A DNA stretch of 28,741 bases from a virus. This document shows, in pieces, positions 4,069-28,741 of this stretch. The notes beneath the pieces were generated by a model, which made no database searches, was not told where the DNA came from, and was given only the letters and a program-made list of their open reading frames with translations. The position numbers and the translations under genes were made by a program. Each line of letters opens with the position of its first letter. Position 1 is the stretch's first letter. Location: IMG/VR virus record IMGVR_UViG_3300027747_004445, positions 1 through 28,741 of that record. One strand, 5' to 3'.

Positions 4069-4433
4069 ACCATAGTCAGCACAGACAAATCTTTTTCAGT
4101 AGGCTCAAACTCTTCTTCAGACTGATCTTCTGTTTCCTGTACTTCAACATTAACAGGTACAAGGTCTTTGTTGGATTGTATAGAAACCATAGTAGGTATA
4201 TTAAATTCTTCTCTATCTACATCAATCACCATAGTCTCTAATCTGTGGTCTATATACTTCTGAAAAGCTAAAGGCTTAACCCAGAAGTCATCACCTATTA
4301 AGTCCGCTTTAAGTTCTTCAGCTTTTTTTTCAACAAGATCAATTGCTTCTATAAGACAAAGCCATCTAGCATATTCGATTTTTTTCATGGAAATGGTCTT
4401 ATCTTTACAGTTAATTTGGATTGTATTGCTCAT
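4065..4433 (-). CDS. Unknown small protein with acidic tail
   Basis: 122 residues, not recognised. The N-terminal half is predicted mixed beta/alpha (NTIQINCKDKTISM, then the helix KIEYARWLCLIEAIDLVEKKAEEL). The last 25 residues are very acidic (ETEDQSEEEFEPTEKD). There is no signal peptide or membrane span. The ATG at 4433 has no Shine-Dalgarno but is preceded by a TTGCGT/TATTAT promoter whose -10 ends 6 bp upstream. The stop shares the four bases TTAA with the stop of the convergent neck gene. Function unknown. Confidence 0.7.
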   Translation of the reverse strand: MSNTIQINCKDKTISMKKIEYARWLCLIEAIDLVEKKAEELKADLIGDDFWVKPLAFQKYIDHRLETMVIDVDREEFNIPTMVSIQSNKDLVPVNVEVQETEDQSEEEFEPTEKDLSVLTMV

Positions 4434-4439
4434 TTCATC

Positions 4440-4468
4440 ATAATAGATGAAAAAATAAACATACGCAA
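4440..4468 (-). promoter_or_regulatory. Sigma70-like promoter for the 4433 gene
   Basis: TTGCGT (4463-4468), 17-bp spacer, TATTAT (4440-4445), then 6 bp to the ATG. The first T of the -35 is 35 bp from the start codon. Predicted transcription start falls at the start codon. Confidence 0.5.
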
Positions 4469-4471
4469 CAA

Positions 4472-4858
4472 CTATCTTAATTTACTTAAAATAAACGCTA
4501 CCAGCGTGGCAAAAAACGTAATTGGATCAATTTTTACTCCAAGAGCGGATAAAATATTAAAACTATTTCTCAATGTATCAAAAACTAATTTTATAGATAT
4601 AGAAACATCTTGATTGTTGTTTTTTATCTGCGTCTTGATTGAATTTTCTAAAACGTTAAAAAAGTCTTGAATAAACTGTTCTGATGACGGTGAATCAGCG
4701 AGTGAGCTAGTGTATGCATTTTTATAGATTTTGTGTGCTAATAATCCTTTTGAAAAAAAGAATTCTTCTGCTTCTTTCTTAACTTGTGCTATAGAAGGTG
4801 GTGCCACATACCCTGATACAGGTAATACTTGGCTTGCAGGTACATTAATTACTTCCAT
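4472..4858 (-). CDS. Unknown protein with C-terminal hydrophobic anchor
   Basis: 128 residues, not recognised. The first ~20 residues are proline- and valine-rich (VPASQVLPVSGYVAPP). The middle is helical (QVKKEAEEFFFSKGLL; QFIQDFFNVLENSIKTQIK). The end, DPITFFATLVAFILSKLR, could be a single membrane-spanning or membrane-lying helix with a positive tail. It overlaps the upstream membrane-protein gene by 14 bp. Its ATG has one of the few good Shine-Dalgarno sequences in the window (AAGGA, 6 bp spacing), as expected for an operon-internal gene. Coupling to a membrane protein suggests a shared membrane location, but no function can be given. Confidence 0.7.
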   Translation of the reverse strand: MEVINVPASQVLPVSGYVAPPSIAQVKKEAEEFFFSKGLLAHKIYKNAYTSSLADSPSSEQFIQDFFNVLENSIKTQIKNNNQDVSISIKLVFDTLRNSFNILSALGVKIDPITFFATLVAFILSKLR

Positions 4859-5276
4859 TTTTTTCCTTTAAATTATTTGCTATCACATCTTCAGCAGACT
4901 CAATTATAGGGGTAGTGACCAAAACAGTTTTTAATAATACATTAACATTAGCATCCTTGTTGCAACCTGGGCATACGTATTCATTTCTCTCGTTTAGCTT
5001 TATAGGAACAAAGCATTTAACCTGTCTATCACAGGGACATATAACCTCTGACCCCTGCTTACTTAGTTCGGCTTCTCTAGCTAAAATAAAATTTTGCTGC
5101 TCTAAAAGCAGTTTACGCTCTTGTATTTCTCTATAAAAATAAAACCCTACGAATTGAACTGCGCTGAAAAAAAGAACGCCACTAATAAAGCTAACGCCTA
5201 GAAATGTCAACGGCCAAGCAAGAATAGCGCTAATTAAAAAGGTAAGACCAAAGCTTTGTAATATCTTTTTAGCCAT
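4845..5276 (-). CDS. Two-helix membrane protein with cytoplasmic zinc-ribbon-like domain
   Basis: 143 residues. Two hydrophobic helices at about 9-27 and 31-48, joined by a two- or three-residue turn, form an N-terminal hairpin. A charged helix follows (YREIQERKLLLEQQNFILAREAEL, about 48-71). Then comes a cysteine cluster C80-x-C82, C88, C102-x2-C105, which looks like a zinc ribbon. The layout (hairpin, coiled stalk, ribbon) would place the ribbon in the cytoplasm, but topology is not certain. The gene heads a two-gene unit with the 4472-4858 gene and has its own TTGAAA promoter. No named family recognised. Phage lysis or host membrane remodelling are possible roles, without direct support. 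Confidence 0.75.
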   Translation of the reverse strand: MAKKILQSFGLTFLISAILAWPLTFLGVSFISGVLFFSAVQFVGFYFYREIQERKLLLEQQNFILAREAELSKQGSEVICPCDRQVKCFVPIKLNERNEYVCPGCNKDANVNVLLKTVLVTTPIIESAEDVIANNLKEKNGSN

Positions 5277-5277
5277 T

Positions 5278-5310
5278 AATATATATTAAAACCAAAATAT
5301 TACTTTTCAA
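5278..5310 (-). promoter_or_regulatory. Sigma70-like promoter for the membrane-protein unit
   Basis: TTGAAA (5305-5310), then 17 bp, then the A/T block AATATATATTA directly abutting the ATG at 5276. The first T of the -35 is 34 bp from the start codon, as at gp32 and gp43. The -35 lies at the 3' end of the upstream gene (5300-5671). Confidence 0.55.
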
Positions 5311-5671: not shown

Positions 5672-5690
5672 ATATATATTTAATCTTCTC

Positions 5691-5705
5691 CATAAATAAT
5701 AAATA
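5691..5705 (+). promoter_or_regulatory. Double late-type promoter for the 5711 gene
   Basis: CATAAATA (5691-5698) and AATAAATA (5698-5705) share one base; the second ends 5 bp before the ATG at 5711. T4 late promoters are TATAAATA, recognised by gp55, which this phage encodes. Which of the two boxes is used cannot be told. Confidence 0.55.
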
Positions 5706-5710
5706 ATATT

Positions 5711-7161: not shown

Positions 7162-7195
7162 TATTTAAGTTTAAAGTAAAACTATGAACAATCAA
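7162..7195 (-). promoter_or_regulatory. Candidate promoter for the primase gene (weak -10)
   Basis: TTGATT (7190-7195) starts 34 bp before the GTG of gene 61, the same position as at gp32 and 17889. The -10 region (AAACTTAAATA) is A/T-rich but a poor TATAAT match, so the call is weaker than the others. Confidence 0.35.
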
Positions 7196-7376: not shown

Positions 7377-7384
7377 TATTTATA
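7377..7384 (-). promoter_or_regulatory. Late-type promoter box before the 58-aa gene
   Basis: TATAAATA on the minus strand with 4 bp to the ATG at 7372, the same gap as for the terminase and tail tube boxes. A TTGATA at 7398-7403 is also present but is only 31 bp from the start. If the late reading is right, late transcription would also read into the primase gene. Confidence 0.5.
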
Positions 7385-8824: not shown

Positions 8825-9187
8825 TCAGGTTTTTTCACTAGAATATTTAGGTCTTTGCACATAATACGGGCTGTTGTGAGGATTATTGTTAATACCGCGA
8901 TCTAACAAATAGGTGATAATTACTTCTATACTATCGGTTTTAATGCTATAGTTTTTATTAAATCTAATACCGCCATCATTTAGTTCAAACATTAAATCAC
9001 CGTTAAAATCTTTATTTGAAAAACAGGTGATAAAAACAGAAGCCAACCCAGGGTCAACTAGAACTGTCCATCTCCTAGGATCGTGCTTTCCATATCTATC
9101 AAATATTCTTAAAACAATAAAACCGTTGTCACGTAGCCTCTTCATAAAATAGCTAGGCGTTCTAATTTTATTATTAGGCGTTTTCAT
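8825..9187 (-). CDS. Unknown protein directly downstream of the sliding clamp
   Basis: 120 residues, not recognised. Alpha/beta composition: RTPSYFMKRLRDNGFIVLRIFD, then WTVLVDPGLASVFITCF, DLMFELNDGGIRF and a helix IEVIITYLLDRGI. Its ATG overlaps the clamp stop (ATGA), so the two are translationally coupled. In T4 the clamp is followed by clamp-loader genes 44 and 62 and then regA. This protein has no Walker motifs and does not resemble gp62 or RegA as I remember them. It is probably a replication accessory protein by position only. Confidence 0.65.
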   Translation of the reverse strand: MKTPNNKIRTPSYFMKRLRDNGFIVLRIFDRYGKHDPRRWTVLVDPGLASVFITCFSNKDFNGDLMFELNDGGIRFNKNYSIKTDSIEVIITYLLDRGINNNPHNSPYYVQRPKYSSEKT

Positions 9188-9912
9188 TTTACCAGTGAAG
9201 AGGCAATATATCTTGTTTTTATTGTCTCGTCATTTAATTGAAAAACAATAACACCAAGCTTGGGATTAATCTTACATTCTAACTGCTTGACCCTCACACT
9301 ACTAATTATTCTGATTAATTCAAAGTTCAAGCATATATCTGTTAATTCTACGCCAGTGTATTCAGCTAATGGTATAGAAAAACTATCTATATTGTGTCTT
9401 GCTCTATCAGTCAGATCACCGTAAATCTTATTATCTTTAGAATACAGATAAAGCTTGTTACTTTCAGTTGCAAAGGTACTACCTCTCAATAATTCTATTA
9501 AAGTTTTATATTGAACAACAAAAGAGATAGGAAATTCTAAACAATCTATTTTATCAATATTAAGCTTAGGTTGTGTTATAATTCCGTTTTCTAGTAAATG
9601 ATATTTAAAATTAACTTCTGGCCCGGAATAGTTAATATTGTTTTTATCAACATTAAAAGTAAATGTATCCCCGCTGATACATTCAAAAGCTTTTATAACT
9701 TTCTTTACATCAGCAATGTTCAAACATAATGTATTATCAATATCAAGATTAAGCTTATATTGCGCATTAAGAATGATAGACGAGTCAGCTGTACAAACGG
9801 TACAGTTAAGACCTGAATCCTTTATGCATACAACACAACTATCATTTATTTTCGATAATGGTGACAAAAACCCACTTAAAAACAATTTTTTATTGGGTAT
9901 GAATACATTCAC
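9184..9912 (-). CDS. 45: Sliding clamp (DNA polymerase processivity factor, gp45)
   Basis: 242 residues (T4 gp45 is 228). It forms a trimeric ring that tethers gp43 polymerase and, in T4, also activates late promoters with gp55. The sequence alternates short strands and helices as in PCNA-fold clamps: SGFLSPLSKINDSCVV, then LNIADVKKVIKAFECISGDTFTF, KYHLLENG, and the second domain FVVQYKTLIELLRGSTFATESNKLYLYSKDNKIYGDLTD. The GDLTD-type turn and the late strand GVIVFQLNDETIKTRYIAS fit gp45. The start is GTG at 9912, without Shine-Dalgarno; a TTGCAA/TATAAT promoter sits directly upstream. It heads the operon down to primase. The clamp-loader genes 44 and 62 are not in this window. Confidence 0.85.
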   Translation of the reverse strand: MNVFIPNKKLFLSGFLSPLSKINDSCVVCIKDSGLNCTVCTADSSIILNAQYKLNLDIDNTLCLNIADVKKVIKAFECISGDTFTFNVDKNNINYSGPEVNFKYHLLENGIITQPKLNIDKIDCLEFPISFVVQYKTLIELLRGSTFATESNKLYLYSKDNKIYGDLTDRARHNIDSFSIPLAEYTGVELTDICLNFELIRIISSVRVKQLECKINPKLGVIVFQLNDETIKTRYIASSLVK

Positions 9913-9918: not shown

Positions 9919-9945
9919 ATTATATTAGCTAACAATAGATTGCAA
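9919..9945 (-). promoter_or_regulatory. Sigma70-like promoter for the clamp operon
   Basis: TTGCAA (9940-9945), 15-bp spacer, perfect TATAAT (9919-9924), then 6 bp to the GTG at 9912. The first T of the -35 is 33 bp from the start codon. It occupies the 35-bp gap before the 9948-10361 gene. Confidence 0.55.
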
Positions 9946-11201: not shown

Positions 11202-11234
11202 TATATATAATAATGTATTCGAAAAAAGAATCAA
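11202..11234 (-). promoter_or_regulatory. Sigma70-like promoter for gp32
   Basis: TTGATT (11229-11234) begins 34 bp before the ATG. A 17-bp spacer is followed by ATTATATATA and one C before the start codon. The 13 bases ATTATTATATATA are identical to those before gp43, at the same distance from the ATG. Confidence 0.65.
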
Positions 11235-12181: not shown

Positions 12182-13519
12182 TCACGTAGAACTTAAATTA
12201 GCGAGCGATTTAGTAAATTCTCTAGCCTCTTCGCTTTCGTTAATAGTATCGTCTTCTGTAATCTGTAATGTATTATAATCGATTTTTAATGCAATACTGC
12301 CAAAATTAGGCCCAAATCGGTTCTTTGTCATACCTATATTAATAATACCAAGTTCTTTATCTTCATCTTTTTGCCAAATAGATATAATTGCATCTGAAGT
12401 GGTTGCAAGACCTATACTCTCAGATATTGTTTCTAAACCGGGGTTATCAACATTATAACCAGACCTGTTCAGCTGTGTAGCTGAAATAATTGGACAGTTT
12501 AGCTCGTAACTCAAAGCCCGTACTTGTTGTGCCGCATATAAAACTCTTTCATAGCTGTTATTACCGAGTGGGCTGTGTAAAAGATTTAAATAATCCAACA
12601 CAATAGCATCCGGTTTAATATTTTTTTGAATAAGCTTCTTAACAAAAGCCTTTAATTGATGTGGTGTTAGTGTGGAGGGCGGGAACTCTTTAATAATAAT
12701 CTTAGAGCTTTTGCCAGAAGCTATCTGTGTAATTAATTGCTTTAAATTGTCCGATTCCGATTTTAAATGGCTAAGAGGTATACTGGTTATAGAAGATGAT
12801 AGTCTTCTCGCGTACATCATTTCGCTCATTTCAAGAGAAACTAGTAATACTGTCTTTCCATCCAGGGCAATATTTGTAGCAATATTTCCTAGAACAATAC
12901 TTTTCCCTACATTCGTTTCACCTGCAAATACATAAAGAGCTCTACCGTTTTCTAGAAAACCTCCGCCAAGTTTACCGTCTAACCATTTCCAGCCAGATTT
13001 GATATGTGGTTCTTCGCTATGAAGATCTTTAATAAATAAATCTATATCATTAAATAATTCTATACCCATATGCTGAGATAGGTTAATCCCAACAGCTTTT
13101 TCTATCTTAGTAAGAAGGTCAGCTGTATTTAATTGTTTAGAATCTAATTTATCGGCCGCGTCTAACAATGCATGGTATACTGCTTTTTCTTTTAAAAACA
13201 ATTCTGTGTTATCTACCAATTCATTTTTTTCAAATTTTTTATCTAAATCTACAAACAAATTAACAACGTTCTTGAAGCTTGTCTTGAGCTCATCGTTAAT
13301 AAGATAGGCCTTAAGTTCGGTATGAGTGGGCGTTGTTCCTCTCTCTTGAAAAAATTTAATAATAATTGAAATGATATTTTTAATATCTTTATTTTTAAAA
13401 TACCTAACATCGAGCGAATCTATAATAGATGAAAGATAATCAGGGTTAATGAGCGAGTTGTATATCACTACATTTTCATAAAAATCTAAATCTAATTGTT
13501 TTTTTGTTTTTACTTCCAT
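12182..13519 (-). CDS. 41: Replicative DNA helicase, T4 gp41 (DnaB family)
   Basis: 445 residues (T4 gp41 is 475). It is a hexameric 5'-3' helicase of the lagging strand that works with primase gp61. The N-terminal helical domain (about 1-150) is followed by a RecA-type motor: Walker A GETNVGKS (200-207), the SLEMSEMMYARR segment (228-239), Walker B IVLDYLNLL (about 306-314), the SATQLNR motif and SDAIISIWQ. An arginine finger would lie in the NRFGPN region, where KNRFGPNFGSIAL fits the DnaB pattern. It overlaps the upstream glycosyltransferase gene by 10 bp and has no Shine-Dalgarno. The operon order is glycosyltransferase, gp41, two unknowns, then gp32 from its own promoter. Confidence 0.95.
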   Translation of the reverse strand: MEVKTKKQLDLDFYENVVIYNSLINPDYLSSIIDSLDVRYFKNKDIKNIISIIIKFFQERGTTPTHTELKAYLINDELKTSFKNVVNLFVDLDKKFEKNELVDNTELFLKEKAVYHALLDAADKLDSKQLNTADLLTKIEKAVGINLSQHMGIELFNDIDLFIKDLHSEEPHIKSGWKWLDGKLGGGFLENGRALYVFAGETNVGKSIVLGNIATNIALDGKTVLLVSLEMSEMMYARRLSSSITSIPLSHLKSESDNLKQLITQIASGKSSKIIIKEFPPSTLTPHQLKAFVKKLIQKNIKPDAIVLDYLNLLHSPLGNNSYERVLYAAQQVRALSYELNCPIISATQLNRSGYNVDNPGLETISESIGLATTSDAIISIWQKDEDKELGIINIGMTKNRFGPNFGSIALKIDYNTLQITEDDTINESEEAREFTKSLANLSST

Positions 13520-14160
13520 TTTAATTTAAAAAAGTTATTACTTTTTACCCATTCCTTATCCTCTAGGTCTCTTAACCCTGGACTCTGATGATATACTAGT
13601 ACAGGCCATACACCTAATTTAAGATTATGCTTTCTACAAGTCAAGCTAAAATCTATATCATAATGATGCCACATAAAACTTTCATCAAATCTGGCACCAG
13701 AATCTCTAACCTTTTTAGTATTGAACATTAAAAATACCCCGTCTAATACATCAACCGATGCAGGGGTAGGGCCAAAAGATGTAACAAACATATTATCAAT
13801 TTTATCTCCGTGAGCAGCTATACCTCTGTAGTTAGAACTGGGCATCATCCAATGCCATAAATTTTTCTCTATAATCGAAGGTACGCGCCCTCCTGCGACA
13901 CCAACAACATCAAAATTCATTAAAGCATCTTTAGCAGCAACTTCTAGATTCGCGAATCTTAAAGAAACATCATGATGACAGCAAATAACTACCTCATATT
14001 TGTCGTTCTTTGCATCTTCTATTATACTATTATAGAATTTACTAAGTCCTATGACTTTATTATTATATTGAATATTAAGGGTTAAATTACTATTTTTTGG
14101 CAATGTCTTCTCTAGTAAACAGTTTCCCTCTAACGGACTTACTGAAAAAACCCCTATCAT
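13510..14160 (-). CDS. GT-A type glycosyltransferase-like protein (StrF-like family)
   Basis: 216 residues. The fold is suggested by the N-terminal strand and helix (FYNSIIEDAKNDKYEVVICCHHDVSL), where HHDV at 62-65 takes the place of the metal-binding motif. VVGVAGGRVP follows, then a second conserved part: VDVLDGVFLMF (136-146), RFDESFMWHHYDIDFSLTCR (158-176) and a late His in YHQSPG (190-195). This order fits the StrF-like GT2 relatives that transfer a sugar from a nucleotide donor. The acceptor is unknown. It heads the gp41 operon under a good promoter, which is unusual for a glycosyltransferase and suggests early expression, as expected if it modifies DNA or a host molecule; that is inference. 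Confidence 0.7.
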   Translation of the reverse strand: MIGVFSVSPLEGNCLLEKTLPKNSNLTLNIQYNNKVIGLSKFYNSIIEDAKNDKYEVVICCHHDVSLRFANLEVAAKDALMNFDVVGVAGGRVPSIIEKNLWHWMMPSSNYRGIAAHGDKIDNMFVTSFGPTPASVDVLDGVFLMFNTKKVRDSGARFDESFMWHHYDIDFSLTCRKHNLKLGVWPVLVYHQSPGLRDLEDKEWVKSNNFFKLKWK

Positions 14161-14167: not shown

Positions 14168-14195
14168 ATTATAATGATTTCTTATAAATAATCAA
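14168..14195 (-). promoter_or_regulatory. Sigma70-like promoter for the glycosyltransferase-gp41 operon
   Basis: TTGATT (14190-14195), 16-bp spacer, perfect TATAAT (14168-14173), then 7 bp to the ATG at 14160. The first T of the -35 is 35 bp from the start codon. The spacer holds the opposing late-type box (14183-14190), so the two promoters cannot both be occupied. Confidence 0.65.
14183..14190 (+). promoter_or_regulatory. Late-type promoter for the 14201 gene
   Basis: Perfect TATAAATA with 10 bp to the ATG at 14201. It lies inside the divergent sigma70-like promoter of the minus-strand operon. Confidence 0.65.
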
Positions 14196-14200: not shown

Positions 14201-15049
14201 ATGGACAATGATAGTAAATTTATTTTTGAGGCATATTCAAAGCATTTAGATGAAATGGCAAAATATGCTGTTGATAAGTTAAAATTTAAATCTGATCCCC
14301 GTCAGGGTGCTGGTGGTGGTTACGGCTTGAAGGGGTTACCGGACGAAAAAATTGATTCATTAATTAACAGTATAGAAACCAAGCTGTTCAAACCTGTAAC
14401 ACATACATCTAATGGTATGGAATATAAACTATTTTACCCTGGTTCAAAAGATAAATTCAAGGTTGAGTTAATTAATTTAATAAAAGACGAACTAAAAATT
14501 GGATCAACTGTTGCAGGCTATACAGCTAGAATAGTTAATAATTTACTTGATGTTATTGATATAGATGAACATGGTAATGCCGTAGCGCAGCCTAAAGAAG
14601 TGGAAAAAGCTGTAGAAGATGGTGCAAAATCTGCTCCAGAGGCTAAGCCAGTAAAGACAGAAACTGTATATGAAATAGATAAATCGGTAGCTATTGAGAA
14701 TAAGAAGCTGAAGGCTTTAGTCTTTGGGCTGCCTGACGAAGATATTAACGAAAAAGAAATTTTAGGTGTACTTAAAAACGCTATAAAAGAATACAACGAG
14801 ACCCCGGGCTTGCCTAAAGATCAGCAATTAAAGATAAAATCTTATGATTTAATAGATATTCTTAAGCAAGCAGGAGTACTAAAGGAAAAGCAAGTAGAAA
14901 AACAATCTGCAGAAGGCGAAGGATCGGGTGAAGTGGATACAATAGAAGATTATCCAGAGACAGACGACGCAGGTACGGTTGCCCGGGAGCTAGGAATGAT
15001 AGGTAGAGATAGAGGAGTTGACGCTGGTGGATTTAGCTTCGGTGATTAA
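14201..15049 (+). CDS. Late-type unknown protein, possible internal head protein
   Basis: 282 residues, not recognised. The N-terminus MDNDSKFIFEAYSKH has I8-F9-E10 followed by A11, the same positions as the I-A-E/A cleavage site in the capsid-targeting peptide of T4 internal proteins. Then come a basic, glycine-rich piece (DPRQGAGGGYGLKG, about 32-45), a helical region (residues 48-125), an acidic Ala/Pro/Glu linker (about 130-160), a second helical module (DEDINEKEILGVLKNAIKEY; KIKSYDLIDILKQAGVL) and an acidic Gly-rich tail. It sits alone on the plus strand between replication operons with a perfect late box. Its stop shares TTAA with that of the amidotransferase. A head-packaged or structural role is inference. 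Confidence 0.7.
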   Translation: MDNDSKFIFEAYSKHLDEMAKYAVDKLKFKSDPRQGAGGGYGLKGLPDEKIDSLINSIETKLFKPVTHTSNGMEYKLFYPGSKDKFKVELINLIKDELKIGSTVAGYTARIVNNLLDVIDIDEHGNAVAQPKEVEKAVEDGAKSAPEAKPVKTETVYEIDKSVAIENKKLKALVFGLPDEDINEKEILGVLKNAIKEYNETPGLPKDQQLKIKSYDLIDILKQAGVLKEKQVEKQSAEGEGSGEVDTIEDYPETDDAGTVARELGMIGRDRGVDAGGFSFGD

Positions 15050-15720
15050 GTAAAGAACGGACTGTCACAGTCAAACACCCCTACAGCTGTAATCCCTTCA
15101 GGTGTCAATTGATATAAACTCCCTTCGTCCAGAGCTTCAGAGTTTTTAAATTTTACACTGCTAAAACTATTTTCTATTTTATTAGCAAACAACGTACTAC
15201 CACATCTTGCAAGATACATTGTATTGCGCGATGATTCATATATCCATAGTCCAAACGTACCTTCCAGTTTACCTAGCGTATGTATAATTGCTTCTATACT
15301 TTCACTGTTTGGAAATTCTTCTTCATACATTGTACACATAAAAGGTATAATACTACTATCAACAGGATTCTTCCATTTAGGGTCAAACATTTCCTTCAAA
15401 TCATTAAAATTAGATAAAACCCCATTATGTGCTATTGTATAGTTTTGTACGTTAAAAGGGTGAGCGGTTTCTGCAGAATACTTTCTTTTCGAGGAAGTAG
15501 GTGCTTGTGTATGACCGACAAGCATAACAATTTCTTCTTCTGTATTATCTAGAGTTTTTTTAATTTGCCGAGTATCTATGACGCCGCTCCAGCGATGAAT
15601 ATGCATATCGCCTTTCTTATTAACAAAGCAGAGCGATGTGGCAAAATTGCCTCTCTTTTGATTTAATTCGTAGAGGGTGAGAAATTGCTCTCTTTCAGTC
15701 GCTCCAAAAATACCACACAT
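15046..15720 (-). CDS. Stand-alone class-II glutamine amidotransferase (Gat), partner of QueC
   Basis: 224 residues, an N-terminal-nucleophile glutaminase that releases ammonia from glutamine. It starts MCGIFG, so Cys2 is the nucleophile after Met removal. Further family marks are VGHTQAPTSS (82-91), ETAHPF, IAHNGVLSNF with the oxyanion N-G, and GKLEGTFGLWIYE followed by LARCGSTLF. There is no synthetase, isomerase or phosphoribosyltransferase domain, so the ammonia must go to a partner. The QueC homologue gene touches it with no gap (stop at 15721-15723, ATG at 15720). Known Gat-QueC fusions make archaeosine-type bases from preQ0. Here the two halves are separate genes in the opposite order. 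The role in base modification is inference. Confidence 0.85.
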   Translation of the reverse strand: MCGIFGATEREQFLTLYELNQKRGNFATSLCFVNKKGDMHIHRWSGVIDTRQIKKTLDNTEEEIVMLVGHTQAPTSSKRKYSAETAHPFNVQNYTIAHNGVLSNFNDLKEMFDPKWKNPVDSSIIPFMCTMYEEEFPNSESIEAIIHTLGKLEGTFGLWIYESSRNTMYLARCGSTLFANKIENSFSSVKFKNSEALDEGSLYQLTPEGITAVGVFDCDSPFFT

Positions 15721-16464
15721 TTAATTATTATATGTGTCGTAGTCAATTAATCTACAATTATACTTTTCCCATACATTGCTTAAATCTTGTCTATATTTAA
15801 GAGGGTCTATATAACCAGCTTTTGCAAATCCTTTGATACGCAATGCACTGCTAGGTGAATTTGCATCGCTCAAATTTTCACCAGAATAACACGTATATGT
15901 TTTGCTAAACGGTACTTTCAGTCTAATACCCTCTTTTACAATATCAGCCTTATCCATTTCTATTAACGGGGCTTCTATACTAATTCTAATTTCTCTATTA
16001 AGAGCTAATACACTGTTAATAGTTGGTAGAAATTCTGGACTAGCATCCCAGTAGCCGGCTAAACTATCAACTTTAGTCGCACCGTGATACACCACACTAG
16101 CGCCTACAGCTTCTGCATACGAAGCAGCAATGCTCAAAAAAATCATATTTCTATTTGGAACATACGATTTAGGTTGCGCCTCACCCGCGATTTGTCTTAT
16201 ATCAGGTGTATCAATATCATCATTAGTCAAACTACTTGTTGGTGCAAGCTGTCTGATAAACGTCACGTCAATAGTAGACCATTCTTTTATTTTTAATTTT
16301 TCAATATGGTATTTTGCTAATTTTAATTCTCTTTTGTGCCGTTGGCCATAATCGTATGATAATCCAAGAACATTTTCTACGCCAAACTGCTCTACAGCTT
16401 TATATAAAATGACAGTACTATCCATACCGCCGGAAATAGGAACAACTACTTTATTCTTTTTCAC
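15721..16464 (-). CDS. queC: QueC-like 7-cyano-7-deazaguanine synthase, zinc site degraded
   Basis: 247 residues. QueC uses ATP and ammonia to make preQ0 from 7-carboxy-7-deazaguanine. The PP-loop SGGMDST is at 11-17; SYDYGQRHKREL (36-47), SYVPNRNMIFLSIAASYAE (100-118) and APLIEMDKADIVKEG (165-179) are classic QueC segments. The family's C-terminal zinc site (C, then CxxCxxCxLR) is mostly gone: C192 remains, but the other three positions read D200, S203 and S206 before ALRIKGF. The protein may therefore have another reaction, for example amidine formation together with the adjacent Gat. It starts with GTG at 16464, 14 bp inside uvsX, with a Shine-Dalgarno (GAGG) nearby. It belongs to the 17889-uvsX operon. 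Confidence 0.88.
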   Translation of the reverse strand: MKKNKVVVPISGGMDSTVILYKAVEQFGVENVLGLSYDYGQRHKRELKLAKYHIEKLKIKEWSTIDVTFIRQLAPTSSLTNDDIDTPDIRQIAGEAQPKSYVPNRNMIFLSIAASYAEAVGASVVYHGATKVDSLAGYWDASPEFLPTINSVLALNREIRISIEAPLIEMDKADIVKEGIRLKVPFSKTYTCYSGENLSDANSPSSALRIKGFAKAGYIDPLKYRQDLSNVWEKYNCRLIDYDTYNN

Positions 16465-17889: not shown

Positions 17890-17923
17890 ATCAATAATAT
17901 ATATGATGCTTAAAAAAAATCAA
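17890..17923 (-). promoter_or_regulatory. Sigma70-like promoter for the uvsX-queC-gat operon
   Basis: TTGATT (17918-17923) starts 34 bp before the ATG at 17889; after 16 bp comes TATATT and then 6 bp to the start codon. The -35 overlaps the stop codon of the polymerase gene. Confidence 0.6.
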
Positions 17924-20505
17924 CTTAAAAGTGAAAATAAATCGCATTGAAGCGCTTCACCTGGTTTTTTAGGTACCCAGTTCACTGCTTCGTAAAAACG
18001 CTCTACAGCACTGTATATAATCTTTTCAAACATTAAATCATGATCTGGTTCAAATATATTAGCAAATTCTTCCGGATAATAATATTTGTATGCGATAGCA
18101 CTAATATTAAACTTATTAGGCTGCTTGACATAAAAATATCTTATCTTATCTCCTGACCCTATTTTTTCATACTTCTTGTCAATATTAAAAGTCGTTAATA
18201 ACAAGTTGTGCATATAAGCAGCTTTTACGTGTAAGGGCATTGATTTGACAGTTTTAAACCCATCGCAACGGTGAGAATACTTTTCATAGCCCTTTAAACC
18301 AGTAACAAAAGATATATCGTTAAAAGGAAGCGTTTTAAATAAATCGTATGTCTCGGCAATTACCTCACCCGTCTTTTGCTGATCTTGAGTTAGTAACATT
18401 GTTTCAACAATTCTTTTTGCGTGCGGCTTAATTGGTGCAGGCATTGTTGTTCTAGCTATTTCTACACCTGTATACTTAAATTTCTCTGTAGGTATACCTT
18501 CTTCATCTAAAATATGAATAACATAGCGTTTTTTTTGTAGGAAAACACCAACGTCACAAATTGCTTCGCGTTTAAAAATAATTCTACTGTCATGGCTATT
18601 TAGAGACTTCTCACACCAGAGCTTTATCTGAGAATTGAGATAATTCTCTATATTTTCAACTTCTTTATAAAACTCAGGTGCAATTTTGCCGTTATTAAGA
18701 AATGGCAAGCCTGCTTTTTCGATTAAAGACTGTAATGTGATATATACTGAGTCTGTATCATTATAAATGATTGGTGTATCCTTCTTAATATCATCTTCTG
18801 ATAGATTAGCCTTTTCCTTAATATAGTTTGATAGTATAATATTGCCTTGCTTAATAACTGCCTGCCCGGTTAGTGTAATACTTCTAGCCAGGTCATCATC
18901 TCCAAGAGGAAAAACTTTATTGCCAAGTGCCCCGTAGACTGTATTAATGAAGATTTTTATCGTGTGTTGCTTGATATTCAAAACGTTTATCTCGTCTTTA
19001 GTCTTTTGATATTCCGCTGTCCCCTTTATTAGTGTGGTAAGATGTCTCTTGACTTTCTTTAAATCTTTTCTCACCTGGACGCGATATTTGTAATATAAAT
19101 CAACCATTTCAGGGATAATCCCTTTGTGCTTCTGACTAAACAAAACTTTAGCTTTACTTATGCTTAGTTTCTCTTGCTGCACTAAAGTAGCAAATTTAGA
19201 TATAGGAAGAGTAACCATATTGTTGTTAGTATCCCTAATTGTGACTTCTTCTTTTGTTTGATTCTCTATAACACCCATCTTTGTTTCAGGGGATAAATTT
19301 AAAGTTATCATCACAGACGGATATAGACTGTTTGCATCAAAACTGACAACACTCTTCTGAAATCCTCTTTTTGGCTCACTCACGTAGGCACCCTCGTTCT
19401 GCTTTCCATCGTCTTCTCCTCTAATAAAAGTAGGTATTTTTTTATTTCTATATCTTGCCCTTACAGCACATGCGCCGATAATGACGCTCATACTACCCAT
19501 CGCAGCTTCCATTGTTGTTAATCCTGTGTAGCTTAACATTCGTAATAATTGAAAATATTGTAACTTTTCCTCTAATCTAACAAGTAGTCGTACGTCCTGA
19601 ATGTTATATTCGACAAATTTGCCCCAATCTGTATCAGCAAGACTACTCAAATTAGTTTCACCGTAATCTATCTTTTGTTCACCCAGCTCTATTTTAGTAA
19701 TATTATTGAGCTTATAATTCTCTCTCAATACCATGCAGAAACGCTTGTAAATATCTAGGTAGTCTAAGCACGATATACCGTCAATATACCATCTTACTTG
19801 CTCCTTACCAAATTGTCCTCTGAGGGTTCTACTATGTACCCTTTGCATAGGGCTTAATCTTGCTACCGTGGCATCATCGAACAATCCTCTAATTCTATTA
19901 ATTAAATATGGCAAGTCGAACAATACTGAATTCCATCCCAGCACAACGTCAGGATAATCATTTTCAAAATGTTTTATAAATCTTTCAAGCATCTCTCTTT
20001 CAGTTTTACAGTAAAAATAAACCTGATCCTCTGCAATTTTATGATAAGGTTTAGTACCCCAAGTTACAAATTTTTTAACTAAAGTATCATAAATAGTTAT
20101 GATATTAATAGGATGATTGGCAGTTTCGATATTTGGAAAGTCATCTACAGAATATGTTTCGATATCTAGAAAAAATAGTTTAAGGGGAAATTGTGAGAAT
20201 TCAGCACTCTCATTTACTTGCCAAAAATTATCAATCAGGAATTGCTGCGAGGGAGATAAATTTTCAAAAATTCTACTTGTTTTAGTTTCATTTAAATATC
20301 TGGATTTTTCAAATTGATTTCTAAAGCTTTTTTTCTTTAATTTTGTATTAAAGATACTTGTAGCGTCTTGAGAATTGTTACTTTCTAGGAATATATAAGG
20401 ATGAAAAGTAGAGTCAATAGCAACTCTCTTTCCATTACTATCCCAGGTAAACAAGCGTATAAGCTCTTGCCTCGGGTCGTATGCAACATTTCTATATCCT
20501 ATCAT
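17920..20505 (-). CDS. 43: DNA polymerase, family B, T4 gp43
   Basis: 861 residues (T4 gp43 is 898), the replicative polymerase with proofreading. Exonuclease acidic residues: D114 and E116 in FFLDIETYS, D197 in LGWNSVLFDLPYL, D304 in YNIQDVRLL. Polymerase motif A is FDANSLYPSVM (389-399, D390), motif B IKIFINTVYG (516-525), motif C YNDTDSVYI (581-589, D583 and D585). The last residues, LQCDLFSLLS, resemble the clamp-binding peptide at the C-terminus of T4 gp43. There is no intein or intron. It starts at ATG 20505 with no Shine-Dalgarno and its own promoter, divergent from the plus-strand gene at 20551. T4 RegA, which represses this gene, was not found. Confidence 0.97.
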   Translation of the reverse strand: MIGYRNVAYDPRQELIRLFTWDSNGKRVAIDSTFHPYIFLESNNSQDATSIFNTKLKKKSFRNQFEKSRYLNETKTSRIFENLSPSQQFLIDNFWQVNESAEFSQFPLKLFFLDIETYSVDDFPNIETANHPINIITIYDTLVKKFVTWGTKPYHKIAEDQVYFYCKTEREMLERFIKHFENDYPDVVLGWNSVLFDLPYLINRIRGLFDDATVARLSPMQRVHSRTLRGQFGKEQVRWYIDGISCLDYLDIYKRFCMVLRENYKLNNITKIELGEQKIDYGETNLSSLADTDWGKFVEYNIQDVRLLVRLEEKLQYFQLLRMLSYTGLTTMEAAMGSMSVIIGACAVRARYRNKKIPTFIRGEDDGKQNEGAYVSEPKRGFQKSVVSFDANSLYPSVMITLNLSPETKMGVIENQTKEEVTIRDTNNNMVTLPISKFATLVQQEKLSISKAKVLFSQKHKGIIPEMVDLYYKYRVQVRKDLKKVKRHLTTLIKGTAEYQKTKDEINVLNIKQHTIKIFINTVYGALGNKVFPLGDDDLARSITLTGQAVIKQGNIILSNYIKEKANLSEDDIKKDTPIIYNDTDSVYITLQSLIEKAGLPFLNNGKIAPEFYKEVENIENYLNSQIKLWCEKSLNSHDSRIIFKREAICDVGVFLQKKRYVIHILDEEGIPTEKFKYTGVEIARTTMPAPIKPHAKRIVETMLLTQDQQKTGEVIAETYDLFKTLPFNDISFVTGLKGYEKYSHRCDGFKTVKSMPLHVKAAYMHNLLLTTFNIDKKYEKIGSGDKIRYFYVKQPNKFNISAIAYKYYYPEEFANIFEPDHDLMFEKIIYSAVERFYEAVNWVPKKPGEALQCDLFSLLS

Positions 20506-20506: not shown

Positions 20507-20539
20507 TATATATAATAATTGATTTTCTTACTTTAGCAA
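20507..20539 (-). promoter_or_regulatory. Sigma70-like promoter for gp43
   Basis: TTGCTA (20534-20539) begins 34 bp before the ATG; 17-bp spacer; ATTATATATA and one G before the start codon. The architecture and the 13-bp A/T block match the gp32 promoter exactly. It is interleaved with the promoter of the divergent gene at 20551. Confidence 0.6.
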
Positions 20540-20548
20540 TAATATATT
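20519..20548 (+). promoter_or_regulatory. Sigma70-like promoter for the 20551 gene
   Basis: TTGATT (20519-20524), 18-bp spacer, TATATT (20543-20548), then 2 bp to the ATG. The first T of the -35 is 32 bp from the start, the shortest distance in the set. It overlaps the divergent gp43 promoter. Confidence 0.45.
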
Positions 20549-22283: not shown

Positions 22284-22313
22284 ATTATATATAAATCATT
22301 TGTACTAGTTCAA
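22284..22313 (-). promoter_or_regulatory. Sigma70-like promoter for the large glycosyltransferase
   Basis: TTGAAC (22308-22313), 18-bp spacer, perfect TATAAT (22284-22289), 5 bp to the ATG at 22278. The first T of the -35 is 35 bp from the start codon. The -35 overlaps the end of gene 46. Confidence 0.65.
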
Positions 22314-24115: not shown

Positions 24116-25152
24116 TTACACTGGTTGTATAAGGATACAGTATATTCAACAACATCTTTTTTATTGTCTATATCTAACATTTGAACAAAGTCTGTAATAG
24201 CCTTAGCAATATCTACCCCGCTAAGATCTATATTAGACTCCAAATCTGCTCCGAACTTGTCAAACTCTATACTGTTATCTACAACTAAATTCAATGGTTT
24301 AAAGTTATGAAGTTTAATTGTTAATTTCTCTAAATCTTGAGCAGATATGTTTTTATCTAAACCGAGCTTGATAATATTATTTCCGAGAACTGTTCTACCA
24401 GCTTCAGTAAAATTTTCAATTTTTATAAGATCGGAAAGATTTATCTTTATATGACGAGGTGATATATCGTTGGGGTAAAAATCATAGCTCGCTTTGTTCA
24501 TATCTAAAATATAATACCCTTTGGTAGACCCTTCATCGCCAAAATCTAATTCAAATGGACAACCAACATATAGAACTGTGCCGTTGCTATATTTTCTTTC
24601 TTCTCTTAAATGAAAGTGACCTGAAATAACAAGAGGAGCAAACTTTAATAAATCCTGCGACTTAAAACCGCCTTCACATACTTTAAAGGTATTCATTTTA
24701 AATGTTTCAATTTCAAAATGACCAAACACTATATCACAATCTTGTATTTCGCTTAATTCTGTACCCCACGGTGCAAAAAAACATTCTTTACCGCCAATTT
24801 GCAGTAAGGTAGGTCTATCTACAATAATAATATTATCACGGCCGTAGAAAATGCGGATACTATTAACGGTGCAATTATTTTTATAAAATGAATCGTGATT
24901 ACCCGCTAACATATACAATTTAAAGTCCTTAAAATACTCTAATATTGTACTTGCGTGATGTAGGGTGTTAACGGTAATTTCGCTACGACTATGAAAAAAA
25001 TCTCCACAAAATATTATTTCTTTAATGTTTTTGGATTTAAGTTCTTCTGTAATCCACTTAGCCCAGTTCAAAGAAACGTCATGCCATACTTGGCTGTTCA
25101 TATGAACACCAAGATGTAAATCGGAGAATATAGCAATCTGACTATTAGGCAT
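24112..25152 (-). CDS. 47: Recombination nuclease subunit gp47 (Mre11/SbcD-like)
   Basis: 346 residues from ATG 25152 (T4 gp47 is 339). Metal-binding motifs of the Mre11 phosphoesterase: D11 and H13 in FSDLHLG, D51 in CGDFFHSR, N85-H86-D87 in AGNHDSF, and SGHFHLR further on. The frame is open to 25197, but the upstream residues lie within gene 55 and Mre11 proteins start only a few residues before the first motif. The 25152 ATG also has GAGAG just upstream and overlaps the gene 55 stop by 8 bp; ATG 25161 is the alternative. It works with gp46, encoded next. Confidence 0.93.
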   Translation of the reverse strand: MPNSQIAIFSDLHLGVHMNSQVWHDVSLNWAKWITEELKSKNIKEIIFCGDFFHSRSEITVNTLHHASTILEYFKDFKLYMLAGNHDSFYKNNCTVNSIRIFYGRDNIIIVDRPTLLQIGGKECFFAPWGTELSEIQDCDIVFGHFEIETFKMNTFKVCEGGFKSQDLLKFAPLVISGHFHLREERKYSNGTVLYVGCPFELDFGDEGSTKGYYILDMNKASYDFYPNDISPRHIKINLSDLIKIENFTEAGRTVLGNNIIKLGLDKNISAQDLEKLTIKLHNFKPLNLVVDNSIEFDKFGADLESNIDLSGVDIAKAITDFVQMLDIDNKKDVVEYTVSLYNQCK

Positions 25153-25744
25153 TACTCTCATTATAGAGGCTGTTATCCATACCTCCACCACCTTCACTGG
25201 TGTAAACGCGTATCCCGGTGTCCGCCTCGTCTTTATTGATAAGACTGTCGTAATTTCGCTCCCTATAGTCTACTATTAATTGATGATGCTTTTTTTCTTT
25301 TTTAATACGACTTATAAATGCATGAAATGCAATAGTTGTAAAGTAACTAAAAGGACTGAACCCTTGGTCAAGCTTAAATTTTTTGTACTTTAATGCTTGG
25401 TACATCTTTACTACAGCATCACCAATCATTTCATCTCTATATGAATAATTAATAAAATTAGGAGCAAACGATAGACCATAAGCAATTCGTCTTATAGCAT
25501 CTGCTAAATATTCAGTCATGTTATCGGTTTGATAATATATTTTAATTTCCTCTTCAAATTGCTTACTATTAACATAATGAGGTTTTTCTGATGGTTTTAA
25601 TTTCTTACCAGGTACGGGCTTGCCTTCCTTAGGGATTGTACCGATAACAGATTTTAAATCAGTTAATTCAGGTGGCAATTCATCCCCCTTGACATCTTTC
25701 TGTTTAGAAGTTATTTTAGGTTTTTTATTTTTAGCGTTTTTCAT
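25145..25744 (-). CDS. 55: Late transcription sigma factor gp55
   Basis: 199 residues (T4 gp55 is 185). It directs host RNA polymerase to late promoters (TATAAATA in T4), helped by the sliding clamp. The first ~55 residues are a Lys/Pro-rich extension absent from T4. The core matches sigma region 2: YLADAIRRIAYGLSFAPNFINYSYRDEMIGDAVVKMYQAL, then FSPFSYFTTIAFHAFISRIKKEKK, parallel to T4 WKQEMIADGIEAS and [23 protein letters not shown]. T4 gp55 ends with a clamp-binding tail (SLDFLYEANDE); here the end reads SLYNESNA, a shorter or degenerate version. It starts 3 bp after uvsW. NATAAATA boxes elsewhere in the window are its likely targets. Confidence 0.92.
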   Translation of the reverse strand: MKNAKNKKPKITSKQKDVKGDELPPELTDLKSVIGTIPKEGKPVPGKKLKPSEKPHYVNSKQFEEEIKIYYQTDNMTEYLADAIRRIAYGLSFAPNFINYSYRDEMIGDAVVKMYQALKYKKFKLDQGFSPFSYFTTIAFHAFISRIKKEKKHHQLIVDYRERNYDSLINKDEADTGIRVYTSEGGGGMDNSLYNESNA

Positions 25745-25747
25745 AAA

Positions 25748-27226: not shown

Positions 27227-27621
27227 CAAGAGGTCTCCATCTTGATAATTTCAATCAAGTTTTTTAAATCAAACCCTATGCTATGGATTGTTTTTTCTAC
27301 ACGCTCTAAAAATTCTATTATGTTTTCTCTTTTAGAAATTTCCATAGCAATATCAGAAACTACAGTATGCCTTTCGGCTGCTTTCTCTAAAACCGGTAAT
27401 GTCAATCTAACTGCTGATTCTTTTTTGATAGTCTCTACAACTTCACTAATAATTTTATTTTTCTTTTTTATTAATTCATTTAAATTATTTTTTTCTATAA
27501 TTAACCTAGAAACCCATTTGGCTTTGCGTGCAGGTAACATTAATGCTGCTTCCTTAAGATTTAACTCATCTAGCTTAACGTCCTCTTCTAATTCTTTTAT
27601 ATATAGATTGAGCTGATCCAT
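27226..27621 (-). CDS. uvsY: UvsY recombination mediator
   Basis: 131 residues (T4 UvsY is 137). It loads UvsX onto gp32-coated single-stranded DNA. The sequence follows T4 UvsY in outline: LYIKELEEDVKLDELNLKEAA (T4 LQEELKKDVFIDSTKLQYEAA), ARKAKWVSRLIIEKNNLNEL (T4 YSKWLNKHSSIKKEML), and the C-terminus IIEFLERVEKTIHSIGFDLKNLIEII (T4 LDFCSGALDAIKSRGFAIKHIQDM). It is all helical with a strongly charged middle. It heads a five-gene operon with a TTGATT promoter. T4 expresses uvsY as a middle gene with uvsW late; here both share one operon. Confidence 0.88.
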   Translation of the reverse strand: MDQLNLYIKELEEDVKLDELNLKEAALMLPARKAKWVSRLIIEKNNLNELIKKKNKIISEVVETIKKESAVRLTLPVLEKAAERHTVVSDIAMEISKRENIIEFLERVEKTIHSIGFDLKNLIEIIKMETS

Positions 27622-27622
27622 T

Positions 27623-27630
27623 CATAAATA
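27623..27630 (+). promoter_or_regulatory. Late-type promoter for the 27645 gene
   Basis: CATAAATA with 14 bp to the ATG at 27645. It overlaps the -10 region of the divergent uvsY promoter (27628-27633). Confidence 0.5.
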
Positions 27631-27655
27631 ATAAGATAACGTCTATGATAATCAA
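27628..27655 (-). promoter_or_regulatory. Sigma70-like promoter for the uvsY-uvsW-55-47-46 operon
   Basis: TTGATT (27650-27655), 16-bp spacer, TATTAT (27628-27633), 6 bp to the ATG at 27621. The first T of the -35 is 34 bp from the start. The -35 lies inside the first codons of the divergent late-type gene at 27645. Confidence 0.65.
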
Positions 27656-27866
27656 GTATAAGACATTTAAAACATTTTTTTATGAAATGAATGCTGCTGG
27701 TGACGGTGGTGTTTTTGGTACTGCAACGTCAATGGGCCATGGCGGTGCTGTTGGTAATACGGATTTCTATGCACCTGGAGATAGTAGGGTCCCTGTAGCA
27801 CTCGGAGCTAAAAAAATTGGCAAAAAACGTAAAATAGTTGTACAAAGACGGCCGCTGATTAAATAG
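27645..27866 (+). CDS. Small Gly-rich, basic late-type protein (possible head-packaged peptide)
   Basis: 73 residues. The N-terminus MIIKYKTFKTFFYEMNA resembles the T4 capsid-targeting peptide (MKTYQEFIAEA) in its K/T/Y/F composition and its hydrophobic-x-E end (F12-Y13-E14). A glycine-rich middle follows (GDGGVFGTATSMGHGGAVG), then FYAPGDSRVPVALGAKK and a very basic tail (KIGKKRKIVVQRRPLIK). It has no predicted fold of its own. A late-type box lies 14 bp upstream. The stop is 3 bp before the next start. If packaged in the head it would be a small DNA-binding peptide; this is inference. Confidence 0.65.
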   Translation: MIIKYKTFKTFFYEMNAAGDGGVFGTATSMGHGGAVGNTDFYAPGDSRVPVALGAKKIGKKRKIVVQRRPLIK

Positions 27867-27869
27867 TCG

Positions 27870-28292
27870 GTGAATTTAGGACATTGGAAATTAGGCCACA
27901 GAGTTACCTTTAAAGAAAATGCTTTTGGCTTTATATACGAAATTCAAAATCTTGTAACTAAACGAAAATACATTGGTAAAAAACAGTGCATAACTACATT
28001 AAAGCGGCCGCCGTTAAAAGGTAAGAAGAATAAAAGACATGAGATAAAAGAAACAGATTGGAAGTCTTACACAGGGTCATCAGTTGAGCTTAATGAGGAT
28101 ATAGTAAAGTATGGTAAAGAAAATTTTGAATTTACAATACTACACTTCTGTGACTCTAAGTGGGAATTAGGCTATAGAGAGATAAAAGAGCAAATAGAAA
28201 AAGATGTCATACTTAGAGAGGAATATTACAATGGCATCCTAAACGTAAGAATAGGCTCACCGCCAAAGAATTTTATTGATAACAAAAAATAA
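27870..28292 (+). CDS. GIY-YIG-like nuclease domain protein
   Basis: 140 residues from GTG 27870. The GIY-YIG signature is G20-F-I-Y23 and Y34-I-G36, eleven residues apart as usual (GFIYEIQN ... KYIGKK). Downstream are TDWKSYTGSS, EDIVKYGKENFEFTILHFC and REEYYNGILNVRIG, which fits the short GIY-YIG proteins common in T4-like genomes. Whether it is a homing endonuclease, a repair nuclease or an inactive relative cannot be told; there is no DNA-binding tail like that of I-TevI. It probably shares a transcript with the 27645 gene. No Shine-Dalgarno is seen. Confidence 0.75.
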   Translation: MNLGHWKLGHRVTFKENAFGFIYEIQNLVTKRKYIGKKQCITTLKRPPLKGKKNKRHEIKETDWKSYTGSSVELNEDIVKYGKENFEFTILHFCDSKWELGYREIKEQIEKDVILREEYYNGILNVRIGSPPKNFIDNKK

Positions 28293-28304
28293 TTCCTTTA
28301 TAAT
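28276..28304 (+). promoter_or_regulatory. Sigma70-like promoter for the 28311 gene
   Basis: TTGATA (28276-28281), 17-bp spacer, perfect TATAAT (28299-28304), 6 bp to the ATG at 28311. The first T of the -35 is 35 bp from the start codon. The -35 is inside the end of the GIY-YIG gene. Confidence 0.65.
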
Positions 28305-28310
28305 AAAATT

Positions 28311-28741
28311 ATGTCATACGTTCAGGGTTGCAGCGTTAAGATAATTAATGTAGATAACATTTTAGAAAGAGTAGAAAGTAGTGTCTCTGAAGATAATAGT
28401 AAATTCTGTTTGCAGAATAAATCTAAACTTATTAAAAGCTTTATAGTGCTTAGAATTTGTAATAGTATCTTTAACGTTATAGATAAAAATAAGCATCAGA
28501 AATTGTTGTTTTATACGTCAAAATCTGCAAAATTAGAGGAGTTCAAAGATTATTTTAATTTCTTTTACTCTACTTTTATAAGAGTAGCTAAAATATTGTC
28601 ACTTACATATTTATACGAAAAAATTAGTATTGCTGAATTTGAGGTTATTGTAAATTGCTGCAAGGGCGAAGGCAAAGAGGCTAGAATAAAAGTATTTAAG
28701 GTCTTTAATAGGGCCAAGAAGCATCCTAATGTAGAGAAGTT
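28311..28741 (+). CDS. Unknown protein, runs off the right edge (partial)
   Basis: At least 143 residues, open to the end of the window. It starts MSYVQGCSVKIINVDNILER and continues helix-rich and lysine-rich (NKSKLIKSFIVLRICNSIFNVID; KLEEFKDYFNFFYSTFIRVAKIL). There is no recognised motif; cysteines are scattered (C7, C33, C50, then C-C near residue 117). An early-type promoter directly upstream separates it from the late-type genes to its left and supports this ATG. Function unknown. Confidence 0.65.
   Translation, partial: MSYVQGCSVKIINVDNILERVESSVSEDNSKFCLQNKSKLIKSFIVLRICNSIFNVIDKNKHQKLLFYTSKSAKLEEFKDYFNFFYSTFIRVAKILSLTYLYEKISIAEFEVIVNCCKGEGKEARIKVFKVFNRAKKHPNVEK

Follow-up and report, generated by a model that had tools for sequence, protein, structure and literature searches.

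Early and late promoters docked at start codons predict leaderless mRNAs in a deep clade of T4-like phages

We analysed the virus record IMGVR_UViG_3300027747_004445 of IMG/VR over its complete length of 28,741 bases (here called the window) for the position of its promoters relative to its start codons. The window has a GC content of 30-37% and encodes T4-like replication, recombination and packaging proteins. Matches to PHROGs identify the terminase large subunit (TerL), a primase, a sliding clamp, a single-strand DNA binding protein (SSB), a DnaB-type helicase and a UvsX-like protein, as well as a DNA polymerase, SbcC/SbcD-like proteins, a gp55-like late sigma factor, a UvsY-like protein and a helicase that we take, from its position, to be UvsW. 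PHROGs gave no match for 8 of 10 window proteins in one scan, nor for 8 of the 20 proteins scanned from a relative, G001. A named phage collection held no near DNA match to window bases 1-25,000, and the window DNA polymerase is ~30% identical to those of the best-ranked named phages. Together these results point to an uncultured lineage, within the collections searched, and judged by its sequence the window is a member of a deep clade of uncultured T4-like phages. Two of its genes bear on late transcription:

25145..25744, minus strand: gp55-like late sigma factor (PHROGs phrog_234, E 1.2e-24), the expected reader of TATAAATA boxes
9184-9912: gp45-like sliding clamp, by a PHROGs match

A first-pass annotation had listed twelve window genes preceded by sigma70-type promoters at a nearly fixed distance and had read them as an early programme of leaderless mRNAs. 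Its account of the promoters themselves is accurate. All 12/12 listed starts have a TTG-led box whose first base lies 32-35 bp ahead of the start codon, and at 10/12 the distance is 34 or 35 bp, with the TTG onset at -35 for 4433, 14160, 22278 and 28311, at -34 for 5276, 7161, 11200, 17889, 20505 and 27621, at -33 for 9912 and at -32 for 20551. TTGATT is present at six starts (7161, 11200, 14160, 17889, 27621 and 20551) and perfect TATAAT at four sites (9919, 14168, 22284 and 28299). None of the twelve (0/12) has a Shine-Dalgarno (SD) 4- or 5-mer from our list in the region -18..-5. The weaker members are 7161 (-10 of TAAACT), 9912 (15-bp spacer) and 20551. A binomial probability of 5.5e-13 for the twelve starts is post hoc, because these genes had been chosen for the motif, and was not used as evidence. 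The promoters are given below with the number of unique orthologs in which the promoter is docked, that is, set at the same short distance from the start codon:

4440..4468, minus strand: early promoter TTGCGT (-35) / TATTAT (-12), gene start 4433; 4/4 unique orthologs
5283..5310, minus strand: early promoter TTGAAA / TAATAT, gene start 5276; 6/6
7168..7195, minus strand: early promoter TTGATT / TAAACT (weak -10), GTG start 7161 of the primase (by PHROGs); 6/6
9919..9945, minus strand: early promoter TTGCAA / TATAAT (spacer 15), GTG start 9912 of the sliding clamp (by PHROGs); 9/10
11207..11234, minus strand: early promoter TTGATT / TATTAT, start 11200 of the SSB (gp32-like); 8/10
14168..14195, minus strand: early promoter TTGATT / TATAAT, gene start 14160; 7/8
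17894..17923, minus strand: early promoter TTGATT / TATTAT at -10 (alternatively, TATATT at -12), gene start 17889, immediately ahead of the uvsX-like gene; 20/20
20512..20539, minus strand: early promoter TTGCTA / TATTAT, DNA polymerase start 20505; 22/23
22284..22313, minus strand: early promoter TTGAAC / TATAAT, glycosyltransferase start 22278; 9/17
27628..27655, minus strand: early promoter TTGATT / TATTAT, uvsY-like start 27621; 9/9
20519..20548, plus strand: TTGATT / TATATT before ATG 20551, a poor fit with the -10 only 2 bp from the ATG
28276..28304, plus strand: early promoter TTGATA / TATAAT, gene start 28311; same promoter in G001 at 19355

The first-pass annotation overlooked a second docked class, T4-type late boxes (NWTAAATA; NATAAATA) at start codons:

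1939..1946, minus strand: late-type box AATAAATA at -12, terminase large subunit start 1934 (TerL by PHROGs)
1952..1959, plus strand: late-type box TATAAATA at -15, gene start 1967
2942..2949, plus strand: late-type box TATAAATA at -12, GTG start 2954, directly 3' of a terminator-like hairpin
5677..5684, minus strand: late-type box ATTAAATA at -13, gene start 5671
5698..5705, plus strand: late-type box AATAAATA at -13, gene start 5711
7377..7384, minus strand: late-type box TATAAATA at -12, start 7372 of a 58-aa open reading frame (ORF)
14183..14190, plus strand: late-type box TATAAATA at -18, gene start 14201; ATAAATAATCAA retained in 10/10 listed rows
27623..27630, plus strand: late-type box CATAAATA at -22, gene start 27645; predicted short leader, not strictly leaderless

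The programme is thus not early alone, as had been proposed, since T4-type late boxes are docked as well as the early promoters. The late box of 14201 and the opposite-strand early -35 of 14160 overlap by 1 bp. Docked late-type boxes stand before virion genes (TerL, head maturation protease, tail tube and baseplate wedge) and likewise before a PhoH-like gene. The early-type boxes of the window stand before replication genes, and in G001 such boxes are found before thymidylate kinase-like, GTP cyclohydrolase and QueE-like genes. Of the T4-type late transcription system, TATAAATA-type boxes before virion genes and, by PHROGs, a gp55-like sigma factor and a gp45-like clamp are present. The gp33 co-activator family PF16805 was found in 0/9 records, and a control search was equally silent. 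At window 2911-2954 a terminator-like hairpin and T run lead directly into a late-type box with its GTG start, an arrangement shared by G008, G002 and G005.

For a wider comparison, genes were called by a caller blind to upstream motifs and gene starts were computed. A gene was counted as first when it diverges from its upstream neighbour or has an upstream gap of at least 15 bp. The strict early rule was TTG-N3-N16..18 followed by at least 5/6 of TATAAT, with the -10 starting at -14..-10; the strict late rule was a box starting at -15..-11, and 200 dinucleotide shuffles served as the null. Among the matches listed in one collection, 80 of 536 relatives were kept. The contigs compared include G001 (105 kb), G010 (229.7 kb) and G011 (184.5 kb); loci and contigs overlap and are related, and counts over them are non-independent. 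Under the strict rules, 7/18 operon-first genes of the window have an early promoter against a shuffle mean of 0.18 and maximum of 2, and 3/18 have a late box against 0.15. The early counts are 12/52 in G001 (0.40 in shuffles) and 12/52 in G003 (0.34), and the late count in G001 is 16/52 (0.31). Positional locking exceeds every shuffle, for both classes, in the window and in 8/8 other contigs. By contrast with these shuffle-based excesses, the strict early rule found nothing in one ~50-kb stretch each of T4 (0/38), Cr30 (0/29), S-SM2 (0/27) and HTVC008M (0/22).

Under a loose rule covering both classes, docked promoters precede 16/18 first genes in the window, 39/52 in G001, 32/70 in G002, 25/35 in G005, 15/28 in G006, 20/35 in G008, 30/52 in G003, 25/40 in G004 and 24/35 in G009; the same search shifted 20 bp upstream returns 0, 2, 4, 1, 3, 2, 1, 3 and 3, in that order. 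The named phages give 2/38 for T4, 0/29 for Cr30, 3/27 for S-SM2 and 5/22 for HTVC008M (4, 0, 4 and 0 in the shifted search). Docked promoters of either class were counted at 68/146 first genes of G010 and 44/128 of G011. The TTG boxes are not equally frequent at other offsets: of 51 bipartite matches in the 80 bp before first genes of G010, 26 have the -10 at exactly -12, and 36/56 late boxes there lie at -14..-12. In most contigs the early -10 hexamer is found most often at -12, and the late box is found most often at -12 to -14. At the majority of first genes, though not at every one, the -10 ends ~6 bp before the start codon. Motif discovery, which had been suggested as a check, agrees. 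De novo expectation maximization with no positional prior recovered nTTG(A) followed by an AT-rich -10, mostly starting at -36 to -34, in G001, G003 and G004, and nATAAATA/nTAAATAT, mostly starting at -12/-13, in G001, G002 and G003; G002 yielded no early motif and G004 no late one.

The same promoters are found in orthologs. For ten early genes we collected orthologs, G001 left out, and retained those with a protein match beginning by residue 12 and a sufficient length of sequence before the start; identical upstreams entered the count a single time. Of 113 unique upstreams, 100 keep an early promoter at -15..-9 (loose rule). Where an ortholog starts at a displaced position (n=54), the promoter scores at its own start only in 32, at both its own and the old position in 11, at neither in 11 and at the old position only in 0. 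It is thus docked at the ortholog's own start in 43/54, of which 11 are ambiguous, as small shifts are indistinguishable. The 11 that score at neither position are 8 glycosyltransferases, 2 SSB genes and one 14160 ortholog, and several of the glycosyltransferase orthologs without an early promoter carry a TAAATA-type string near the start. In the group with 50-60% identity the DNA polymerase starts two codons later, and the 17889 gene start is shifted by +3, -6 or -9 nt among orthologs; in both cases the promoter lies beside the new start.

A broader contrast comes from loci around DNA polymerase genes, of which 94 of 192 were kept (at least 9 kb, 89 being shorter, and at least 4 first genes), 71 from the clade, with polymerase identities of 45-100%, and 23 from an outgroup, all fetched with the HTVC008M polymerase. 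The strict early promoter is present at 198/574 first genes in the clade loci vs 21/183 in the outgroup loci. SD motifs are distributed in the opposite way, preceding 4/574 first and 18/500 internal genes in the clade loci, and 51/183 first and 75/228 internal genes in the outgroup loci. SD 5-mers at -18..-5 were also counted, for ATG-start genes only, in eight clade contigs, the window and the named phages T4, Cr30, HTVC008M and S-SM2. The eight contigs have 8/271 first and 12/263 internal genes with an SD 5-mer, not significantly above a control region, and the window has 0/16 and 1/10. The corresponding values are 13/28 and 6/30 for T4, 11/22 and 5/21 for Cr30, 8/22 and 4/18 for HTVC008M, and 4/20 and 3/23 for S-SM2. 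G010 and G011 have an SD 5-mer at 8/146 and 5/128 first genes. SD-led expression of the T4 kind, with an SD before first and internal genes, is not what the clade displays.

SD motifs, missing at the listed starts as the first-pass annotation had said, have not been wholly lost across the clade. The near group has a clear SD leader at the major head gene, with AAGGAG in 4/4 rows (G001, G008, G002 and G010); a fifth row, the distant G011, does not enter this count. In the tail tube gene GGAG stands beside a late-type box in 4/5 near rows (G001, G002, G006 and G010, not G008), and the distant G003 has no GGAG. In all 5/5 near-group contigs that hold the tail sheath gene (G001 at L068:8080-8150, G002, G006, G008 and G010), a late box lies 15-16 bp before an 11-codon ORF that contains GGAG and stops 1-5 nt before the sheath ATG; the 11-residue peptides begin with MS. 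G005 has no sheath gene, and in the distant G003 and G011 a late box is docked directly at the sheath. Since the major head gene and a few others keep an SD, the host ribosome can probably use it, and the phage probably keeps SD motifs for a few products, above all the major head protein. A hairpin precedes the major head gene SD in G001 (L070:6355-6434), G008, G002 and G010; its stem sequence varies and is complementary by eye, and the fold z-score of the G001 stretch is weak (-1.55).

With sigma70, a -10 at -12..-7 and a -35 near -35..-30 place +1 on the first base (A or G) of the start codon, and a T4 late box at -13..-6 places the transcript start at about the same position. We propose, with a probability of roughly 0.86, that the clade makes most of its first-gene mRNAs without a 5' leader, in both the early and the late class. 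The promoter of early genes would be of the housekeeping type, combining a TTGATT-like -35 with a TATWAT -10 across a spacer of 16-18 bp. Its -10 begins ~12 bp ahead of the start codon, which would place the first base of the transcript at the A/G of ATG/GTG, plus or minus 1-2 nt. Late genes would be read from an NWTAAATA box mostly 12-15 bp before the start codon, presumably by the gp55-like sigma, with the 5' end at, or a few nt from, the start codon. Ribosomes of a host presumably competent for this route would initiate on the 5'-terminal start codon. Many downstream operon genes overlap or abut and have no SD, which suggests that they are reached by translational coupling. Promoter geometry, the footprints in orthologs, the depletion of SD motifs and the contrast with the outgroup all favour the leaderless mRNAs that the first-pass annotation had derived from sigma70 spacing; 20551 fits poorly.

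Several observations weigh against this proposal. The late boxes of 14201 and 27645 predict leaders of ~5 and ~9 nt. In the eight other contigs, 25-54% of first genes have no docked promoter under the loose rule, and internal genes with one range from 2/28 in G006 to 13/47 in G001 (10 of them late-type), which points to probable internal promoters in a few operons. Some outgroup first genes also satisfy the strict early rule (the 21/183 above), SD motifs are sparse in one comparator too (S-SM2, 4/20 first genes), and certain clade genes do carry them (major head, tail sheath and tail tube). The early promoter is lacking in 13/113 unique orthologs, 8 of which are glycosyltransferases, and two primase orthologs fit -12 equally well 3 nt from their own start. 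The docked clamp start (window 9912) is GTG in 8/11 listed rows, despite passages of one study that describe leaderless GUG as much less efficient in E. coli and better in some other bacteria (PMC9031893). Retention of this GTG is a hint that the host tolerates GUG or that clamp synthesis is damped.

Among other explanations, mRNAs with very short leaders (~3-10 nt), initiated without an SD through loose recognition of the 5' end, are unlikely but deserve serious attention. Start-site choice at promoters varies by a few nt, and the late boxes at -15, -18 and -22 for 1967, 14201 and 27645 fit such leaders; the commonest offsets, with the early -10 at -12 and late boxes at -12 to -14, put +1 on the start codon itself. 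Ordinary leaders from promoters further upstream, in a host that simply does not use the SD, would make SD absence uninformative about leaders. Bacteroidota are an example of such hosts, and SD motifs in the clade are scarce at internal genes as well. Against this, the detected promoters are docked, with no comparable peak within 80 bp upstream, many divergent gaps offer little space for two leaders, and the AAGGAG kept at the major head gene suggests that SD use has probably not been lost; we regard such leaders as improbable. Bacteroidota-type promoters (TAnnTTTG) were also considered and set aside, as the TATWAT boxes look different by eye.

It is very improbable that the promoters are real while translation begins downstream of the called start codons, with ordinary leaders hidden inside called coding sequence. 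The gene caller picks the longest ORF, and passages of one paper suspect wrongly annotated starts in some Deinococcus leaderless genes (PMC12340547). Among docked genes, however, an SD with an in-frame start within 25 codons was found in 0/29, 1/43, 0/41 and 0/20, no more often than in control codons 60-84 (1, 1, 1 and 0). Protein similarity to many orthologs sets in at the called start or a few residues from it, and the promoter moves with the displaced start in the 43/54 orthologs described above. Chance is scarcely credible. The AT-rich intergenic DNA and the compact gaps (53/77 divergent gaps in the eight other contigs measure 19-70 bp) could bring TATAAT- or TAAATA-like strings near starts, yet the window counts stand far above their shuffles, the 20-bp shift abolishes nearly all matches, and T4, Cr30 and S-SM2 have no excess.

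The proposal of leaderless early and late mRNAs can be widened into a joint reading that is tentative and falls a little short of even odds. The early host-sigma and the gp55 late programmes would both have been rebuilt around leaderless mRNAs, with the SD largely dropped, operons included, and reserved for a few genes such as that of the major head protein, and with the near-group tail sheath fed through a leaderless 11-codon upstream ORF that has an internal SD. At divergent early/late pairs the promoters share a few tens of bp, and late RNA polymerase may block access to the early one, a switch from early to late built into the spacing. Among 57 divergent pairs, 16 are early/late and 1 is early/early, compared with ~13 and 4-5 for random pairing from the side counts, and the pairs are non-independent; the pairing as a switch is an idea only.

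T4, S-SM2 and Cr30 share with the clade the core replication genes, a gp55-like sigma and TATAAATA-type boxes. They differ in that a strictly docked promoter of either class precedes none of their first genes (0/38 in T4, 0/29 in Cr30 and 0/27 in S-SM2), and T4 has SD motifs before its starts. The Pelagibacter phage HTVC008M has part of the layout, with a late NATAAATA at -13 in 5/22 first genes of one stretch and 1/26 of a second (another at -16), and a near-consensus promoter at its DNA polymerase whose -10 lies 12 bp before the called TTG start and 18 bp before the annotated ATG. Its remaining late boxes are placed between -26 and -80, and in many of these cases the leader contains an SD; SD motifs are common, and it encodes S21, which was not found in nine clade records (fragments). 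Among the phages compared, the fullest form of the docked layout is in this clade, and its partial presence in the cultured HTVC008M makes the idea testable in the laboratory. In HTVC008M-like pelagiphages (L198:9945-9994, L189:9945-9994, L201:9945-9994 and L170:9057-9106), a near-perfect TTGACT..TGATATAAT stands just before the DNA polymerase start, and SD motifs are common at the other genes of these loci.

Leaderless expression occurs in Actinobacteria. It is well known in Deinococcus-Thermus, where passages of one paper describe genes without a leader whose -10 box lies a few bp ahead of the ORF (PMC12340547). In these bacteria the -10 motif alone can serve; the clade differs in conserving the TTG -35, in being viral and in having two promoter classes. 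The Thermus phage phiYS40 has mostly leaderless middle and late mRNAs, according to passages of its description (PMC3594737). In the clade mostly leaderless mRNAs are predicted, from docked promoters only; the differences are the Thermus host of phiYS40 and, in the clade, complete -35/-10 early promoters and the T4-type late box. The phiYS40 programme is also marked by a rise of IF2 and a fall of IF3 in the course of infection. Phage AR9 was considered as a precedent and rejected, as its 5' untranslated regions measure 26-491 nt in passages of the report (PMC5312081), where phage transcripts are also remarked to be "often leaderless" (PMC5312081); this remark counts against general novelty. 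Passages of a T4-like cyanophage review name sigma70-like early motifs and NATAAATA late motifs, and the terms leader and Shine-Dalgarno are absent from the review (PMC2984593). Our searches of open-access papers listed no description of T4-like phages with leaderless mRNAs.

T4 is the textbook example of a timed phage transcription programme, and its mRNAs are leadered and SD-led. If our proposal is correct, the same late sigma system can couple to a different kind of translation start, and these phages would be a natural system in which leaderless initiation could be studied on a large scale. A start codon and promoter built as one unit would allow a few tens of bp to carry two divergent promoters. 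Annotation is affected too, as a gene finder that relies on SD leaders may put starts in the wrong place in such genomes.

With respect to the host and to translation factors, psbA-family genes were found in 0/8 records and WhiB in 0/9, and neither S21 nor IF3_C (PF00707) was found among phage-encoded translation factors in the nine records, all of them fragments. A search of genome contigs with the polymerase alignment gave one 27%-identical match, in a Nanoarchaeota metagenome-assembled genome, which says little about the host. Some contig names suggest that lakes and the sea are among the sampling sites. The window has no tRNA; some relatives do. In G002 a phage tRNA with a CAT anticodon (L077:19593-19668) has, by eye, an unpaired 1-72 position (C1-C72), as initiator tRNAs do; the three G-C anticodon-stem pairs of initiators are missing.

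Other features were noted in the clade. Window 1967-2893 encodes a 308-aa protein, without a PHROGs match, that has acidic stretches of low complexity and, towards its end, a repeated segment. Glutamine amidotransferase-like, QueC-like, QueE-like and GTP cyclohydrolase genes, by PHROGs, lie at window 15046-16464 and at L066:9179-9925 and 13021-13677; the set suggests a 7-deazaguanine pathway, perhaps with a role in DNA modification. A small ORF with PHROGs matches to homing-endonuclease families lies at window 27870-28292, between the uvsY region and the 28311 gene.

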